Under the pieces are notes generated by a model. It ran no database searches. It had not been told where the DNA came from and was given only the letters and a program-made list of their open reading frames with translations. The position numbers and the translations under genes were made by a program. 64,000 nt of DNA from Pseudomonadota bacterium (GTDB lineage: Bacteria > Desulfobacterota > Desulfobulbia > Desulfobulbales > Desulfocapsaceae): NCBI GenBank assembly GCA_018821985.1, contig JAHJKP010000035.1, positions 1 through 64,000 on the forward strand, written 5' to 3'. This document shows, one piece after another, positions 45,883 through 53,439 of the stretch (position 1 is its first letter; each line of letters starts with the position of its first letter).

Positions 45883-46842
45883 ATGCTTCACATCGCTAAC
45901 CTGACTCTCGACTCGCCCTTTCTCCTTGCCCCCTTGGCCGGATACACCGACCTCCCTTTTCGCCAACTTTGCCGGGAGTTCGGGGCCGGAATGGTTGTCT
46001 CCGAGATGATCAGCTGCCATGGTCTGGTCTATGGACAGGCCAAAACAAGAGCCATGCTCGCCTCAAATCCTGCAGAGCGACCTGTGGCTTTTCAACTTTT
46101 TGGAGCAGATCCTGCCATAATGGGCGAGGCCGCGGCCCTGCTCAGCACCTTTCATCCTGATTGTATTGATATCAATATGGGCTGCCCGGTCAAAAAAGTA
46201 ACCAAGCGGGGGGCAGGCGCCGCCCTGATGCAGGAGCCGCAACTGGCAAAATCAATCCTGACCAGCGTCATCAACAACAGCACGGTCCCGGTCACCGTAA
46301 AAACCAGGATCGGGGTGGACAGCCGGAATATCTCAGCAATCTCCTTTGCCAGAATGGTAGAAGATGCCGGGGCTGCCGCCATCACTGTGCATGGCCGCAC
46401 CTGGGCCCAAGGGTTCACCGGCACTGCGGACTGGGATGTCATTGCCCAGGTGAAACAGGCAGTGTCTCTTCCGGTCATTGGTAACGGTGACATCCACTCC
46501 CATGCCCAGGGTCTGGAGATGATGCACCGGAGTGGCTGTGACGGGATCATGATTGGCCGGGCAGCGTTAGGCAACCCCTGGGTCTTTTCTCCGGGCGGCA
46601 AACCAACCGACTTGGCAAGCCTGATGGATGGTGTCTTTCGCCATCTGGAGCTGATCGAGGAATCACTGACGACAGATCACATGCCAGGCGATATCAAAAA
46701 TCATCTTGGCCGTTATTTCAAGGCACTGCCTGAAAGCGCACGATACCGGAAAATGATCTATGACTGCAAAGACCTTCCTGGCCTGCGCCAAGCCCTTGAA
46801 TCCATCAGGGCAGGCACAACAGGCAACAACAATTGGGAATAA
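45883..46842 (+). CDS. dusB: tRNA-dihydrouridine synthase, DusB-like
   Basis: 319 residues. FMN-binding TIM barrel: LAPLAGYTDLPFR, then INMGCPVKKVTKRGAGAAL with the catalytic Cys, VKTRIG, TVHGRTWAQGF and IGNGDIHS, then GIMIGRAALGNPW. Dus enzymes reduce uridines in the tRNA D-loop with NADPH. The stop is 12 bases before the rarA ATG, so they are probably co-transcribed. Confidence 0.92.
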   Translation: MLHIANLTLDSPFLLAPLAGYTDLPFRQLCREFGAGMVVSEMISCHGLVYGQAKTRAMLASNPAERPVAFQLFGADPAIMGEAAALLSTFHPDCIDINMGCPVKKVTKRGAGAALMQEPQLAKSILTSVINNSTVPVTVKTRIGVDSRNISAISFARMVEDAGAAAITVHGRTWAQGFTGTADWDVIAQVKQAVSLPVIGNGDIHSHAQGLEMMHRSGCDGIMIGRAALGNPWVFSPGGKPTDLASLMDGVFRHLELIEESLTTDHMPGDIKNHLGRYFKALPESARYRKMIYDCKDLPGLRQALESIRAGTTGNNNWE

Positions 46843-46853
46843 ATTCCTCCACA

Positions 46854-48215
46854 ATGACCACAGACAAATCGCCACTTCATAGTTCATCCCCCCTGGCTGA
46901 ACGGATGCGCCCCCATACCCTTGAAGGATTCGCCGGCCAGGAATCTCTGCTGGGGCCAGGAAAGATGCTGAGTACCGTGATCAGCTCCGGTGCCCTCCCC
47001 TCCCTGATCCTCTGGGGGCCACCTGGAACCGGCAAAACCACCCTTGCCAAGATCTTGGCAGAATCCACCTCTGCCTATTTTGTCTTTTTTTCAGCCGTCC
47101 TCTCCGGGGTAAAAGAAGTCCGCCAAATCGTGGAAAAGGCCCAGGAACTTCTGAAGACAGAAAACAGGGCCACCGTTTTTTTTATCGATGAGATCCACCG
47201 TTTCAACAAAAGCCAGCAGGACGCCTTCCTTCCCCATGTGGAATCCGGCCTTTTCACCCTCATTGGGGCCACCACCGAGAATCCCTCTTTTCACGTCACG
47301 GCCCCACTACTCTCCCGTTGCCGGGTCCTTGTTCTCCATGCCCTTGAACGGGAACACCTGCAGACCATCTTCCTTCGCGCCCTGAATGATCCTGACAAGG
47401 GTCTGGGACATTATCATCTCCATTTTACCGATGAGTCTCTGGCCCAATTGATCACTCTTGCAGACGGCGATGCCAGGATGGGCCTCAATGTCCTGGAAAT
47501 CGCAGCCACCCTTGCCCTGCACCGTTTTCAAAATACGCCGGACTCAGAGTCCCCAACCATCACCAGCGACGATATCGCAGAGGCGGGGCAACATAAATCG
47601 CTGCGCTACGACAAGGATGGCGAGGAGCATTATAATCTGATATCGGCCCTGCACAAGTCCCTGCGCGACTCAGATCCAGACGGTGCCCTTTACTGGCTCT
47701 ACCGGATGCTGGAGGCTGGAGAAGAACCGCTCTATATCTGCCGCCGCCTGATCCGCTTCGCCTCAGAGGATATAGGGGTTGCCGATCCGCAGGCCCTCAG
47801 CCAGACCATCAGTTGCCAACAGGCCTTTCAGACCCTCGGCCTCCCGGAAGGGACCCTGGCTATGGCCCAGGCCGTAGTCTATCTGGCCACGGCCCCCAAG
47901 AGCAATGCCCTCTACACGGCGGAGTCAGCTGTTCGTCACCATATAGCCCGCACCGGTTCGCTGCCCGTGCCCATGCACCTGCGCAATGCCGCAACCAGCC
48001 TCATGAAGAAACTGGGCTATGGCAAGGGATATCAGTATGCCCACGACCAAACCCAAGGCTTAGTGGAACAGAATCACCTCCCACCAGAACTTGCAGGCAC
48101 CAATTTTTATTCTCCCACCGCCAGAGGCTATGAAGCGGTGATCAAAGACAGACTCAACAAATGGCGCCAGATCCTTCAACAGCGTAAACAGGAACAGAAT
48201 GAATCCAGAAAATAA
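46854..48215 (+). CDS. rarA: Replication-associated recombination protein RarA (MgsA)
   Basis: 453 residues from ATG 46854; a TTG at 46833 would overlap dusB and is less likely. AAA+ motifs: Walker [13 protein letters not shown], Walker [15 protein letters not shown], sensor GATTENPSF; the C-terminal tetramerisation region with [17 protein letters not shown] and SEDIGVADP is also present. RarA acts at stalled replication forks. The 3' end overlaps the next gene start by 17 bases. Confidence 0.92.
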
Positions 48216-49516
48216 TTCCACTTGCCATAAACACAGGCCCGTCAGCAATGTCCTATTCTCCATCCTCTTGCTCACAATCTTGCTGGTGCCAGCCACACGA
48301 CTCCACGCTGCTCCCCTGCAATCGTTTCTTCTCTTTTACTCAAACAATATCCAGGGAAAAACCGAGCCCTGCGGCTGACACTCCAATCAACTGGGCGGGC
48401 TGTCCAGAAAGGCATTGCAGATCAAGAAGATCACCACCAAACAACAGAAACCTTACCTCTTCCTTGACTCCGGCAACCTGCTCTTCCAGCAAGCTCAGAT
48501 TGCCGGAGGACCTTCCCAGGAACAACTGACTGCCGAGGGAATCATCAAGATCTACACCGCAATGAAGGTGGATGCAGTGGCGGTTGCCCCCCTGGACCTG
48601 GCATCTGGGCTTGCTTTGCTGAAGACAACTCAGCAACAGGGTTTTCCCTGGCTGTCCGCCAATCTTCTTGACCAGAAGGGACGCCCTCAGTTTCAGCCGG
48701 TGCGCATCAAACAAATCGGCAAAATAAAAGCTGGGATCATTGGCCTGACCGGTGCTCTTTCCTCGCTGCCCCCAGGCATCACTCGTGCAGAGTGGCAGAC
48801 AGTACTCCCTGCCTTGATTGAAAAAAACAGCCATCAATGCGACATTCTGATCCTACTTTCCAGCCTGTCTCCTGCCGAGAATCAGGAGATCGCCCAGCGA
48901 TTTCCGGCCCTCCAACTCATTCTTGCGGCTGATCTGGGCAATGGCAACATGAGCCCGCAGCAAGTCAACAACACCTTGATCACCCAGACCGAACGCCAGG
49001 GGAAATATCTAGGTCTTCTAAACATTGACTGGAATAAAAGCGGCCGATGGGGCAAGGCAAGAGAGGAAGAACTCAACAATCTACGGAATAAACTTGGTGC
49101 GCTCGACTGGCAACTCGAGAGGATGCGGACGAGAAAGGATCTTCAACAGCCAGAGTACAGTGAAAAGATCAAACAAGTTGAGAGAGATCGGGAAACGGTG
49201 GCCCAGCAGATCAAGACATGGGAACAAAGCCCGACCACTGCGGCTGCAGACGGACAGAACCCACTCTGCAGCTTCACCTATAATTTCATGGCCCTGCAGA
49301 AATCAATGGCTGAGGCCCCCGAGATCAAGGCTCTCGTCACCGATATCAAACGACAGATCAATGTCTTACACCAGAACAAGACCAGCACGGACTAGACGCG
49401 CCCCTTTCTTGGTCATGATGGCTGCAAAACCTGCCATCCAGTGCAGACCGAATTCTGGCAGTCAACACGCCATGCCACGGCCTATCAGAGCATGAAGGGA
49501 ATGGGACAGATAAGCA
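48199..49516 (+). pseudogene. UshA-like selenoprotein with multihaem cytochrome tail, broken by TAG and truncated
   Basis: From ATG 48199 (GGAACAG upstream) the frame has a signal peptide (SILLLTILLVPATRLHA), then LLFYSNNIQGKTEPCG, an in-frame TGA at 48376-48378 (codon 60), and HSNQLGGLSRKALQ. Cys normally follows PCG in these proteins, so TGA is likely Sec. A hairpin starts 12 bases later. The metallophosphatase-like domain continues to TAG at 49393-49395. In the same frame beyond TAG, LGHDGCKTCHPVQTEFW and RHATAYQSM show a haem CxxCH motif, then similarity stops near 49516. So the gene once extended into a cytochrome domain and is now inactive, or yields a 398-residue protein without haem. 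Confidence 0.7.
48391..48407 (+). promoter_or_regulatory. Candidate bacterial SECIS hairpin in the UshA-like gene
   Basis: CTGGGC-GGGCT-GTCCAG forms a six-pair stem (one G-T) with a five-base loop, beginning 12 bases after the in-frame TGA. Confidence 0.55.
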
Positions 49517-49770
49517 TAATCTGTCCAAAAAGTTGGATATATTTGATAGCATCAAGGGAGAGGCTTGGAACGGTTGACGCGTCTCAGGGGAACACATTTG
49601 ATAATCAGCTCTGGTCAAATCTGGACTGGATGGTCATTGTTGTTGAGGAGGGCATTCTCGATGTCTTTATCCAGCAGATGAGCACCAGCCGCTCATGGTG
49701 GCAGATGATAGATTCCGAGGATTGCAATCGACCTGATCTCTCTCTTGATGTGACTCGTGAAAAGTGAGTG
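49517..49770 (+). pseudogene. Possible fragment of a Cache-type sensor domain
   Basis: The plus strand reads ...DNQLWSNLDWMVIVVEEGILD and then VFIQQMSTSR in an open frame to 49767. The LDWMVIVVEE part recalls the final strand of dCache sensor domains (LDWLIVVVVPE-like). It has no start, and the frame is continuous with the cytochrome remnant only by chance. This is a weak assignment to a decayed piece of another gene. Confidence 0.25.
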
Positions 49771-49834
49771 AAAAGAGAAAACGTAGCCATCAAAGGCTCT
49801 TCATCATTTTTAATTTGATCTGCAGGAGGTAAAA

Positions 49835-49939
49835 ATGAGACAATCTACTCATACTTGGGTACTAATCGTGACCATGGGTGTGGCCATCGCGAGGCGTGGT
49901 GACGGTGAAGACGAGGTGCGCAGCAAGGTGACAAGGTAA
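49835..49939 (+). CDS. 34-residue open frame with strong ribosome-binding site, possibly a truncated gene
   Basis: AGGAGGTAAAA directly precedes ATG 49835. The product begins MRQSTHTWVLIVTMGVAIA, which looks like the start of a signal peptide or membrane anchor, then turns into a charged tail and stops at 49937-49939. It may be the 5' end of a lost exported protein. Confidence 0.3.
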   Translation: MRQSTHTWVLIVTMGVAIARRGDGEDEVRSKVTR

Positions 49940-50048
49940 GCACGGGTAGCAGATCATAGAGCTGCAAAAAGCCCTGGATAAGGATTGAAACAAAAAACAT
50001 TCAGCCTTTTGTTTTTTTTCTTCAATAAATTCCTTTTGAGGTGCGGGT

Positions 50049-51854
50049 ATGGAAGAGTCAGTGGATTCAAAGGATTCTAAAAACTGGTGTTCACTCTGCA
50101 TGCCTTTCTTGAAGTGGTGGCCTCGGGTGACGCCCACGACCGTGCGGGCCGACCTGATTGCCGGCCTGACCGGTGCTGTTCTTGCCCTGCCCCAAGGGGT
50201 TGCCTTTGCCACCATCGCCGGCATGCCTCCCCAGTACGGCCTCTATGCCGGCATGGTCCCGGCCATTATTGCGGCCCTGTTCGGTTCCTCCTGGCAACTG
50301 GTATCCGGGCCGACAACCGCCGCGTCCCTGGTCCTCTTTTCAAGCCTCAGTAAATATGCGCTGCCCGGCAGTGCTGAATATGTCCAGCTGGCGCTGACCC
50401 TGACCATGATGGTGGGGTTGATTGAATTGATCATGGGACTGGCCCGTTTAGGCGCCCTGGTCAATTTTATCTCCCATTCCGTGGTCGTTGGTTTTACCGC
50501 CGGTGCAGCCCTGCTGATTGCCTCCAGTCAGTTGAAACATTTCTTCGGCATCGAGATGCCCAGAGGCGGCCATTTCCATCAGACGGTGTACGGGGTGGTC
50601 AGCAGGTGGGGTGATTTTAATCCCCATGTGGTTGCGGTCGGGCTGGCGGCCATGATCACCGGGCTTCTGATCCGCCGTTTTCTGCCGAAGGTCCCCTATA
50701 TGATTGTTGCCATGCTGGCTGGGTGTGCAGTCTCCTTTGGCCTTTCCCGATATGCAGGGGTGGCTGACATCCCGATGGTAGGCGCCCTGCCATCTTCCCT
50801 GCCACCCTTGTCTTCTCCCCATTTTACCCTGAATAGCTTCCGGGATCTGGTCCCTGTGGCCCTGGCAATGACCCTTTTTGCCTTGACCGAGGCGGTTTCC
50901 ATTGCCCGTGCGCTGGCGGTCAAGACCGGGCAGGATCTTGACGGAAATCAGGAGTTTATAGGTCAGGGACTCTCCAATATGGTCGGCAGCTTTTTTTCAG
51001 GATATGTGTCCACCGGTTCGTTCAACCGCAGTGGTCTGAACTTTCAGGCCGGGGCCAGGACCCCGCTTGCCGCCATCTTTGCGGGATCCTTGTTGATGGT
51101 GGTGGTGCTGCTTGTCGCCCCCTATGCCAGCTATCTTCCCAATGGTGCCATGGCCGGAATCCTCTTTCTTGTGGCCTGGGGACTCATTGATTTCCATCAT
51201 ATCAAACGGATCCTGAAGACGAGCCGGGCGGACAGTGTTATCCTGGTGGTCACCTTCCTGGCCACCCTCTTTCTCGAACTTGAATTTGCCATCTTCTTTG
51301 GGGTCCTGCTCTCCCTGATGCTCTATCTGAACCAGACCTCCCATCCCCGGGTGCTGAGCCGGGTTCCCGATCCCCATCATCCCCTGCGGACCTTCGTCAC
51401 CGATCCCTCTCTGCCAGAGTGCCCGCAACTGAAGATCATCAGGATCGACGGATCTCTGTTTTTCGGGGCGATCAACCATGTGCAGGAACAGCTGCGCCAA
51501 TTGTTTCGTGGATCTTCCGAGCAGAAGAATTTCCTCTTGATCTTTGCCGGCATTAATTTTGTGGATATGGCCGGGGCCGATTTTATTGTCGATCTGATTA
51601 AAAAAGAGCAGGAAAAAGGGGAAAAGCTCTACTTCTGTGAGATCAAAAAACCGGTGCTTGATGCCCTGCACAAGGACGGGAATGGGGAAATCCTGCAGGC
51701 CGATACCATCTTTGAACTGAAGAATGAGGCGGTTGCCGCCATATGCCAGCGGCTCGATCCGGATATCTGTGCCCGCTGTCAGGCCCGGATTTTTTGGGAG
51801 TGCAAGGCGCTGCCGCCATTTTCAGGTCAGCAGGACAAGGCGGCCTCAGCCTAA
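50049..51854 (+). CDS. SulP family anion (sulfate-type) transporter with STAS domain
   Basis: 601 residues. The N-terminal transport domain has about 12 hydrophobic segments with the SulP signature (DLIAGLTGAVLALPQGVAFA, MPPQYGLYAGMVPAIIAALF, FSGYVSTGSFNRSGLN). Residues ~460-560 form a STAS domain (LKIIRIDGSLFFGAINHVQE and FVDMAGADFI). SulP proteins move sulfate, bicarbonate or other anions; which one is unclear, though sulfate would fit the organism type. The C-terminus has an extra Cys motif DICARCQ. It is inserted between two decayed cytochrome-tail segments, and its composition is more GC-rich than its surroundings. Confidence 0.88.
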   Translation: MEESVDSKDSKNWCSLCMPFLKWWPRVTPTTVRADLIAGLTGAVLALPQGVAFATIAGMPPQYGLYAGMVPAIIAALFGSSWQLVSGPTTAASLVLFSSLSKYALPGSAEYVQLALTLTMMVGLIELIMGLARLGALVNFISHSVVVGFTAGAALLIASSQLKHFFGIEMPRGGHFHQTVYGVVSRWGDFNPHVVAVGLAAMITGLLIRRFLPKVPYMIVAMLAGCAVSFGLSRYAGVADIPMVGALPSSLPPLSSPHFTLNSFRDLVPVALAMTLFALTEAVSIARALAVKTGQDLDGNQEFIGQGLSNMVGSFFSGYVSTGSFNRSGLNFQAGARTPLAAIFAGSLLMVVVLLVAPYASYLPNGAMAGILFLVAWGLIDFHHIKRILKTSRADSVILVVTFLATLFLELEFAIFFGVLLSLMLYLNQTSHPRVLSRVPDPHHPLRTFVTDPSLPECPQLKIIRIDGSLFFGAINHVQEQLRQLFRGSSEQKNFLLIFAGINFVDMAGADFIVDLIKKEQEKGEKLYFCEIKKPVLDALHKDGNGEILQADTIFELKNEAVAAICQRLDPDICARCQARIFWECKALPPFSGQQDKAASA

Positions 51855-51868
51855 GGCCAGATCAATGA

Positions 51869-52339
51869 CAAGACCTTGATCACCGATATCAAACGACAGA
51901 TCAGTGAGATGCACCGCAACGCCAGTAGCAGGGGTAGAGAGAAGAACAGGAGGCCGCAACTCCTTTGTCATAATGGTTGCGAGAGTTGCCACCCAATCCA
52001 GACCAGAATCTGAAAAAAAACCCGCCATCCAGGCCTATCAGACCCTAGAAGGGCATGGTCAGGCTCACAATCTGGAGTGCCTCCCCTGCCACGTCAGCTT
52101 CAGCCCCGGGATTGTCTTAAGCAAAGAGCAGCTTCTCGCCCTGCCTTCCACCCAGCAGACAGCGGGGCTGTGAAAACTGTCATGCTGGCCCTGGCAGCTC
52201 CCATGCCGGCAACCTTGGACAATTCCCGATGACCAAACAGGTGAATGAGAGGATATGTCTCTCCTGCCATACCAAGGAGAGAGACAAGAAATTTGACTAT
52301 CAGAGAAAAAGAGAGCTGATCCGTTGCCCTGCCGGATAA
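51869..52339 (+). pseudogene. Decayed C-terminal multihaem cytochrome tail of a UshA-like gene (second copy)
   Basis: The segment opens with LITDIKRQISEMHRNA, closely resembling VTDIKRQINVLHQNK at 49340-49380, and continues through GCESCHPIQTRI to a TGA (TGG expected). In a second frame it reads RHPAIQAYQTLEG and LECLPCHVSF; after another shift near 52165 it reads GCENCHAGPGSSHAG and RICLSCHTKERD to TAA at 52339. Four CxxCH haem motifs can thus be followed across at least two frameshifts. It has no start or N-terminal domain. It shows what the complete tail of the gene at 48199 looked like. Confidence 0.75.
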
Positions 52340-52509: not shown

Positions 52510-53439
52510 TTAGCAACCGAAGACCTTCTGCAATGGTGGAACGGTCTGTTTTTTGCGGCTCATCATACCGCCTACCCACATAACACCACCATCGATCTTG
52601 CCACCGAAGGCCTGCTCAATCATGGCTGGATCGTCGGAAAGCACAATCAGCTCGGTCCCTTCCTTGACAACATCGGTGAGCATGAACAGAACGGAATGAC
52701 GACCGTCTTTCTTGACATCCTCCAGAGCCTTCAGCAGGTCAGCACGGATACCGGCAACCTGATCGAGAGCGGCAAGCTCCAGCTGACCGATACCGACTTT
52801 CTTGCCGTTCATATCAAAATCCTTGTAGTCACGGAAGACCAGATCTTTCATGGCATAGCCGTCAATGGAAGATTTGGCGCGGAGCATCTCCATGAACAGA
52901 GCATCAGTATCCTCAACTCCTGCAACTTTCTTCAACTCAGCTACTGCAGCCTTGTCATCAGGGGTGCAGGTTGGGGATTTGAAATTCACGGTATCACTGA
53001 GAATGGCTGACAGCATTCCGCCGGCAATATCTTTAGGAATGGCGACGCCTGCATCCTTGAACATCTTGTTCAGGACAGTGCCACTACAGCCCACAGGCTC
53101 GGCACGGAACAGGATAGGCTGATTTGTGGTGATGTCACCAACTTTATGATGATCAACAATGGCAACCACCTCGGCAGAACCGATGTTGGCTGGAGCCTGA
53201 CCGATATCGCTGAAATCCACCAGGGCAACTTTCAGGCCGGCTGCATCCATCATGGTCTCAGGGGCAGCGAGACCAAAGCGCTTCAGAACCACTGTGGACT
53301 CTGGGTTGAGCTTGTCAGCTTCGATCTGCATGCAGGCCTTTGCGGGTTGACCCTGGGCATTGAGAAGCGCTGCAAAGGCAATAGCTGCGGTTACGGAATC
53401 GGTATCTGGGTTAGAGTGTCCTACTACACAAATTGTCAT
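52510..53439 (-). CDS. ppaC: Manganese-dependent inorganic pyrophosphatase (family II)
   Basis: 309 residues, DHH superfamily. VGHSNPDTDSV, VDFSD, the DHH signature in AIVDHHKVGD, and SRKKQTVPPL at the C-terminus are the conserved blocks of family II pyrophosphatases. It hydrolyses pyrophosphate; in sulfate reducers this pulls sulfate activation by ATP sulfurylase forward. GGAGG precedes ATG 53439. There are no CBS domains. Confidence 0.95.
   Translation of the reverse strand: MTICVVGHSNPDTDSVTAAIAFAALLNAQGQPAKACMQIEADKLNPESTVVLKRFGLAAPETMMDAAGLKVALVDFSDIGQAPANIGSAEVVAIVDHHKVGDITTNQPILFRAEPVGCSGTVLNKMFKDAGVAIPKDIAGGMLSAILSDTVNFKSPTCTPDDKAAVAELKKVAGVEDTDALFMEMLRAKSSIDGYAMKDLVFRDYKDFDMNGKKVGIGQLELAALDQVAGIRADLLKALEDVKKDGRHSVLFMLTDVVKEGTELIVLSDDPAMIEQAFGGKIDGGVMWVGGMMSRKKQTVPPLQKVFGC

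Follow-up and report, generated by a model that had tools for sequence, protein, structure and literature searches.

The locus

The window, as we call the whole stretch of 64,000 nucleotides that was analysed (G000:C40:1-64000, from the window genome G000), contains a Sec-containing head gene closed by a TAG, followed by two remnants of a tetrahaem tail that are separated by a segment carrying a sulfate permease gene. The features and their strands are as follows.

46833..48215, forward: rarA (MgsA-type AAA+; PF12002, E 4.3e-67), its last 17 bases overlapping the head gene
48199..49392, forward: Sec-containing UshA_like_PCGU head gene, starting at ATG 48199, 398 residues if the TGA is read as Sec
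residues about 1-38 of the head, forward: signal peptide, judged by eye
48367..48378, forward: PCG-U motif, with the Sec codon TGA at 48376-48378 (residue 60) within PCG-U-HSNQLGGL
48391..48407, forward: SECIS-like hairpin of six pairs with the loop GGGCU, beginning 12 bases past the TGA
49393..49395, forward: in-frame TAG closing the head frame, read directly in the sequence
49396..49500, forward: first remnant of the tetrahaem tail, with one CxxCH motif (CKTCH, 49423-49437)
49501..51869, forward: segment separating the tail remnants, containing the sulfate permease gene
50049..51854, forward: SulP-family sulfate permease of 601 residues (PF00916, E 6.7e-98; TIGR00815 over cut-off)
51870..52339, forward: second tail remnant, in three frames, with CESCH (51978-51992), CLPCH (52078-52092), CENCH (52169-52183) and CLSCH (52256-52270)
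52510..53439, reverse: convergent neighbour resembling inorganic pyrophosphatase

The head frame is intact except for the conserved Sec TGA. An earlier, sequence-only reading of this DNA had described a signal peptide, an in-frame TGA at 48376 and a hairpin 12 bases further on, all of which are present (the signal peptide by eye), and also a break at TAG 49393 followed by CKTCH and truncation, which can likewise be read in the sequence. Downstream of the TAG the same frame continues with TRPFLGHDGCKTCHPVQTEFW. The tail sequence at 51870-52339, beyond the permease gene, had been overlooked.

At the level of gene order, rarA lies upstream of the gene in 66 of 80 loci and the pyrophosphatase-like gene, which we take to be ppaC, lies downstream in 45 of 80, some loci being too short to show these genes. 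In four tail-less loci of other genera inspected by eye, the downstream gene is kept in all four and rarA in two. These conserved neighbours suggest no substrate.

An already named selenoprotein family

By profile score and motif, the window gene belongs to an exported selenoprotein family that has already been named. NCBIfam NF041198, 'UshA-like (seleno)protein', gives 406.8 bits for the frame 48199-49392 (cut-off 275, E 1.2e-121), over model positions 4-386 of 519, and the frame carries the PCG-U/C motif of the family near its N-terminus (TGA 48376). The idea of an unrecognised family has accordingly been dropped. NF041198 (COG0737 'UshA-like', CxU) shares the PCG-U site with the window protein, but its 519 positions include a C-terminal haem stretch (about 387-519), whereas the intact window frame stops at model position 386 and only remnants of that stretch follow. 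The haem stretch is not needed for membership, since the proteins of two other genomes of the genus, G006 and G009, score over the cut-off and are nevertheless tail-less. To the model NF049981, UshA-like (seleno)protein family 2, the window protein shows a weak match of 51.5 bits, below the cut-off of 140; this second family is entered as CxxU in a 2026 review (PMC13188914). No Pfam domain exceeded the cut-off in the head.

The UshA-like selenoprotein, assigned to COG0737 with a CxU motif, has been in print since the 2008 GOS survey (PMC2398784). In the sections of that survey dealing with the family, UshA-like is placed among families lacking conserved Cys-based redox motifs, although its table gives CxU (PMC2398784). 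The family is also covered, in the parts that treat it, by a 2022 review (PMC9312934) and the 2026 review (PMC13188914). In the papers searched, no account of a function or of tail loss of the UshA-like family was found.

Conservation of the Sec codon and its machinery

The features by which a bacterial selenoprotein is recognised were found here: an in-frame TGA that homologues keep or exchange for Cys, a SECIS-like hairpin just 3' of the TGA (whose single-sequence energy is not significant) and Sec machinery encoded in the window genome. Among 106 loci fetched out of 128 match rows (every row at E 6.3e-36 or better, the window locus included), the codon at the Sec site is TGA in 102 and Cys in four; the 22 weaker rows lie outside this Sec/Cys classification, and seven such places were read as paralogues. 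A second collection of 80 loci, retained from 251 relatives, comprises 76 Sec loci, three Cys loci and one unclassed locus (L126). Within the genus, the TGA is retained in all 16 genomes that carry the gene. As a side observation, the motif reads G-G-U or G-S-U in the tail-less L030, L040, L043, L066, L072, L088, L090 and L103; the spacing in these members is C-x-x-U where Cys is present, and L030 and L043 are without that Cys.

The energy of the hairpin in the window sequence alone is no better than that of shuffles (z 0.70). Among relatives, 79 of the 102 Sec loci have all six pairs and 100 have five or more, and the loop is GGUCU in 74 of 97 distinct sequences. Over the 102 Sec loci, 95.4% of the hairpin cells pair, compared with 25-58% when the partner is slid. 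Covariation adds little to this, because letters shuffled within columns pair nearly as often as the real ones (mean 92.4%, maximum 93.8%), and the codons for QLGGLS explain part of the conservation. Rfam at gathering thresholds gave no match in the 64,000-nt window, nor did ARAGORN call any tRNA there.

In the window genome selA (628.5 bits), selB (391.5) and selD (380) all exceed their cut-offs. The best tRNA-Sec match of this genome scores 58.7 bits, which passes the Rfam gathering threshold, and its alignment shows a UCA anticodon; ARAGORN makes no call on it. G016, another genome of the genus, holds both a gene of this 58.7-bit type and a 70.6-bit tRNA-Sec gene, the latter called by ARAGORN. 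Of the 17 genus genomes, 13 have a tRNA-Sec gene of 68-70 bits among their matches, and none of about 70 bits is among those of G000, where scoring covered only 139 of the 305 first-look candidates. Over-cut-off selB is present in 14 of the 17 genomes, and the same count holds for tRNA-Sec. Separately, a second tRNA-Sec-like gene of 99 bases and 58-62 bits was observed in G000, G016, G012, G009 and G006; in the two loci checked (L219, at C6:147365-147463 of the window genome, and L221 of G016) it has a UCA anticodon and ARAGORN is silent.

A phosphoesterase fold with an eroded metal site

The AlphaFold model of head residues 36-398 has a mean pLDDT of 89.3, the loop of the Sec site being less sure (58 for residues 21-30), and the model of a tailed relative (L107) reaches 89.1. 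The head model resembles the N-terminal fold of the 5'-nucleotidases E. coli UshA and CD73 with Z scores of 31-32 (UshA: Z 31.9 over 272 residues at 2.1 A), and that of the thiosulfohydrolase SoxB with a Z of 30.4 (274 residues, 3.6 A). The proposal of an exported UshA-like fold with Sec near its N-terminus is borne out. At the sequence level, TIGR04486, the SoxB model, picks up 52 of 53 heads at E 0.001 or better, but the window protein scores 39.3 bits against the cut-off of 550 and is not assigned to it. The second domain of UshA binds nucleotide, and this domain is missing from the window frame.

In the window protein, the N-terminal metallophosphoesterase fold of UshA and CD73 is found without the dimetal ligands and the catalytic His-Asp. 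In an alignment with the UshA-type relatives L204, L205 and L207, its nine metal and catalytic positions are occupied by N, Q, N, P, L, A, S, D and G. With the columns named after what we take to be the corresponding UshA residues, retention among 98 Sec loci is 29 for D41, 15 for H43, 2 for D84, 1 for N116, 6 for H117, 1 for D120, 0 for H217, 1 for H252 and 10 for H254. Given the figures for D41 and H43, some Sec heads may bind a single metal. Seven Cys forms (L053, L057, L061, L094, L161, L171 and L182) were also inspected: Asp stands at the first metal-ligand position, D41, in all seven, compared with the 29 of 98 Sec forms, and D84 is kept in three. Judged from the models and alignments, the head is an exported protein that has the fold of UshA and SoxB but has lost most of the aligned metal and catalytic residues. 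What it conserves is the Cys-Gly-Sec, which follows the first strand in the loop where two metal ligands used to lie. The earlier description as metallophosphatase-like therefore survives for the fold and fails for the residues.

The haem tail among relatives

Homologues were compared, as the sequence-only reading had proposed, for Cys or Sec at the site and for their number of CxxCH motifs. Of 98 Sec loci classified by their tail, 58 have four CxxCH motifs and 40 have none; L102 and L104 (short), L047 (two motifs) and L064 (one motif, at a contig end) were left out. In 39 of the 40 tail-less loci no more than two CxxCH motifs occur in any frame within the next 750 bases, and the fortieth, L080, ends at a contig edge. 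The fusion to a multihaem c-type tail that had been read from the window is borne out by the tailed relatives; all 65 that were scanned match Cytochrome_C554 (PF13435) at E up to 0.1. On the other hand, homologues lacking any cytochrome extension, which had been named as evidence against such a coupling, do exist, so that the claim holds for the 58 and not for the 40.

A profile search with the tail found cytochrome c554 (PDB 1bvb), of which the window retains remnants only. MccSep, a multiheme cytochrome c selenoprotein (PDB 9wt8), combines Sec with multiple haems, going by its PDB name, but only the first haem stretch of the tail matches it, weakly (E 0.049), and the head is unmatched, which is too weak for kinship; a literature search on MccSep gave no related paper, as judged by title.

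Tail-less orthologues are present in other genera too. Beside tail-less heads (39 loci, 0.8-1.6 kb downstream) a haem-rich ORF, the candidate for a partner in trans, was found only in G008, a genome of the genus, and it is the debris of that gene's own tail. No replacement haem protein stood out, since tailed and tail-less species of the genus both have PF13435 proteins at other loci. Two side observations concern the tail on its own. Several genomes of the order (e.g. G086:C64, G073:C11 and G090:C46) contain short frames, about 130-205 residues long, that stand alone and match NF041198 in its tail part only, and in another genus a region near the tail-less head L060 (G043:C14:4765-4947) matches the model at its tail end.

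Repeated loss of the tail within the genus

The gene is present in 16 of the 17 genus genomes, the seventeenth being 55% complete; seven have the four haem motifs and nine have none in frame. Remnants of the tail persist in three genomes (the window genome, G002 and G008), and the six remaining tail-less members have lost most of it. The remnant of G002 is frameshifted (70.0%), and that of G008 (90.9%) has an internal deletion. One tail deletion is common to G006 and G012, only a short stub is left in G009 and G004, both showing a 5-base gap that G008 lacks, and no tail sequence was found 3' of the heads of G013 and G007. The G008 stretch differs from G016 at 7, 7 and 9 sites by codon position; these are small numbers that include the end of the head, and their near-even spread is as expected for a sequence that may have escaped selection.

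In a neighbouring-gene tree built without the head, which has four open forks, the tail label requires three changes, and a single tail-less clade is rejected (AU p 1.38e-06, for eight tail-less rows, G007 left out). These changes are read as tail losses, a direction that rests on the remnants and the tailed outgroups. By these sequence comparisons, members of the genus have lost the tail on at least three occasions, with the Sec head staying intact.

In the window genome, 49279-49500 is 82.9% identical at the DNA level to G016, the first 114 bases of this stretch being head frame, and similarity to the intact tail fades out near 49500. The second remnant is 75.6% identical to G016 over 51973-52339, and both remnants combined show all four haem motifs. 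SulP-like DNA of 74-88% occurs at other places in G016, G004, G008, G009, G010 and G011, and in G009 a piece resembling window 49534-49753 also adjoins its SulP-like DNA; hence the segment seems to have moved into the window tail, and the sulfate permease looks like a newcomer at this locus. Apart from this, the remnants at 49396-49500 and 51870-52060 represent an overlapping part of the tail; about a third of the aligned sites differ, and a fresh duplication of the tail remnants is accordingly unsupported.

Selection on the Sec head

Selection was estimated from pairwise NG86 dN/dS values. Tail-less heads gave 0.11-0.25, apart from a value of 0.33 for G013-G007 and the pair G002-G007, for which no estimate could be computed; tail-bearing heads gave 0.13-0.26. 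G006 and G012 have been tail-less since before their split, as follows from their clear common deletion, and their heads show a dN/dS of 0.113 at a dS of 0.55. The G009-G004 pair (0.183) is a weak one, because both trees join G004 with G008 (100/99), which lacks the 5-base gap. The window head differs from G016 by 0.14, 0.12 and 0.35 at the three codon positions, a divergence that may be mostly older than the tail loss. The Sec head thus appears, from these substitution patterns, to be kept by selection, the main evidence being the G006-G012 pair and not the window's own last branch.

Interpretation

The window gene is probably a functional, tail-less member of NF041198, a reading into which we infer a redox mechanism and an optional relay. 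According to this mechanism, the Cys/Sec pair would form a redox-active site in the periplasm, perhaps acting on a sulfur-containing substrate, as its residues and architecture suggest. The four-haem tail of Cytochrome_C554 type would serve as an electron relay replaceable by a separate partner, and in the window genome this tail has been broken by the TAG, frameshifts and the sulfate-permease segment. Tail-less orthologues elsewhere suggest a stable stand-alone enzyme served by another electron carrier. The absence of the neighbouring Cys from the tail-less homologues L030 and L043 counts against the redox reading, as does the place given to UshA-like in the 2008 survey. The broader proposition, that a phosphoesterase fold without metal chemistry works as a selenol redox enzyme whose fused four-haem relay is dispensable and was dropped three or more times within one genus, is held tentatively, the chances for and against it being nearly balanced.

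It might be argued that the whole gene is a young pseudogene here, the tail having been lost first and the head being unselected but not yet decayed. The TAG, frameshifts and large inserted segment in the window tail would fit, as would the tail debris in other species, but the head frame is intact apart from its conserved Sec TGA, the heads of G006 and G012 were constrained after their common deletion, and third codon positions diverge most from G016, though the greater part of this may predate the tail loss; we regard such a pseudogene as rather unlikely. The earlier picture of a gene caught while decaying consequently applies to the tail and not to the whole gene, whose head is intact and whose tail-less orthologues look constrained. 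A metal-dependent hydrolase of UshA/SoxB type, with Sec as an extra ligand or nucleophile, would be in keeping with the fold similarity to both enzymes, with the widespread TIGR04486 matches and with D41 and H43 in part of the loci. The score far below the SoxB cut-off and the substitution of most ligand and catalytic positions make this quite improbable.

The two stop codons invite further alternatives. Were the TGA a real stop, a shorter Sec-free protein could be made from a downstream start, and an ORF from TTG 48415, the first one listed, is indeed present; this is hardly credible in view of the 102 TGA and four Cys codons among 106 loci, the conserved upstream sequence and hairpin, and the occurrence of selA, selB, selD and a tRNA-Sec match in the genome. 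Conversely, if the TAG were read through (e.g. as pyrrolysine), a longer cytochrome would still be produced from the frame that runs on with one CKTCH. We give next to no credence to this, as no PylS match exceeded the cut-off in the window genome (three weak matches lie below it), and tail similarity stops after about 35 codons with a single haem motif in that frame.

The loss of the phosphoesterase metal site speaks against taking the name UshA-like as a statement of hydrolase function. Closely related species with and without the haem tail constitute a natural experiment that separates the needs of the Sec head from the contribution of the haems.
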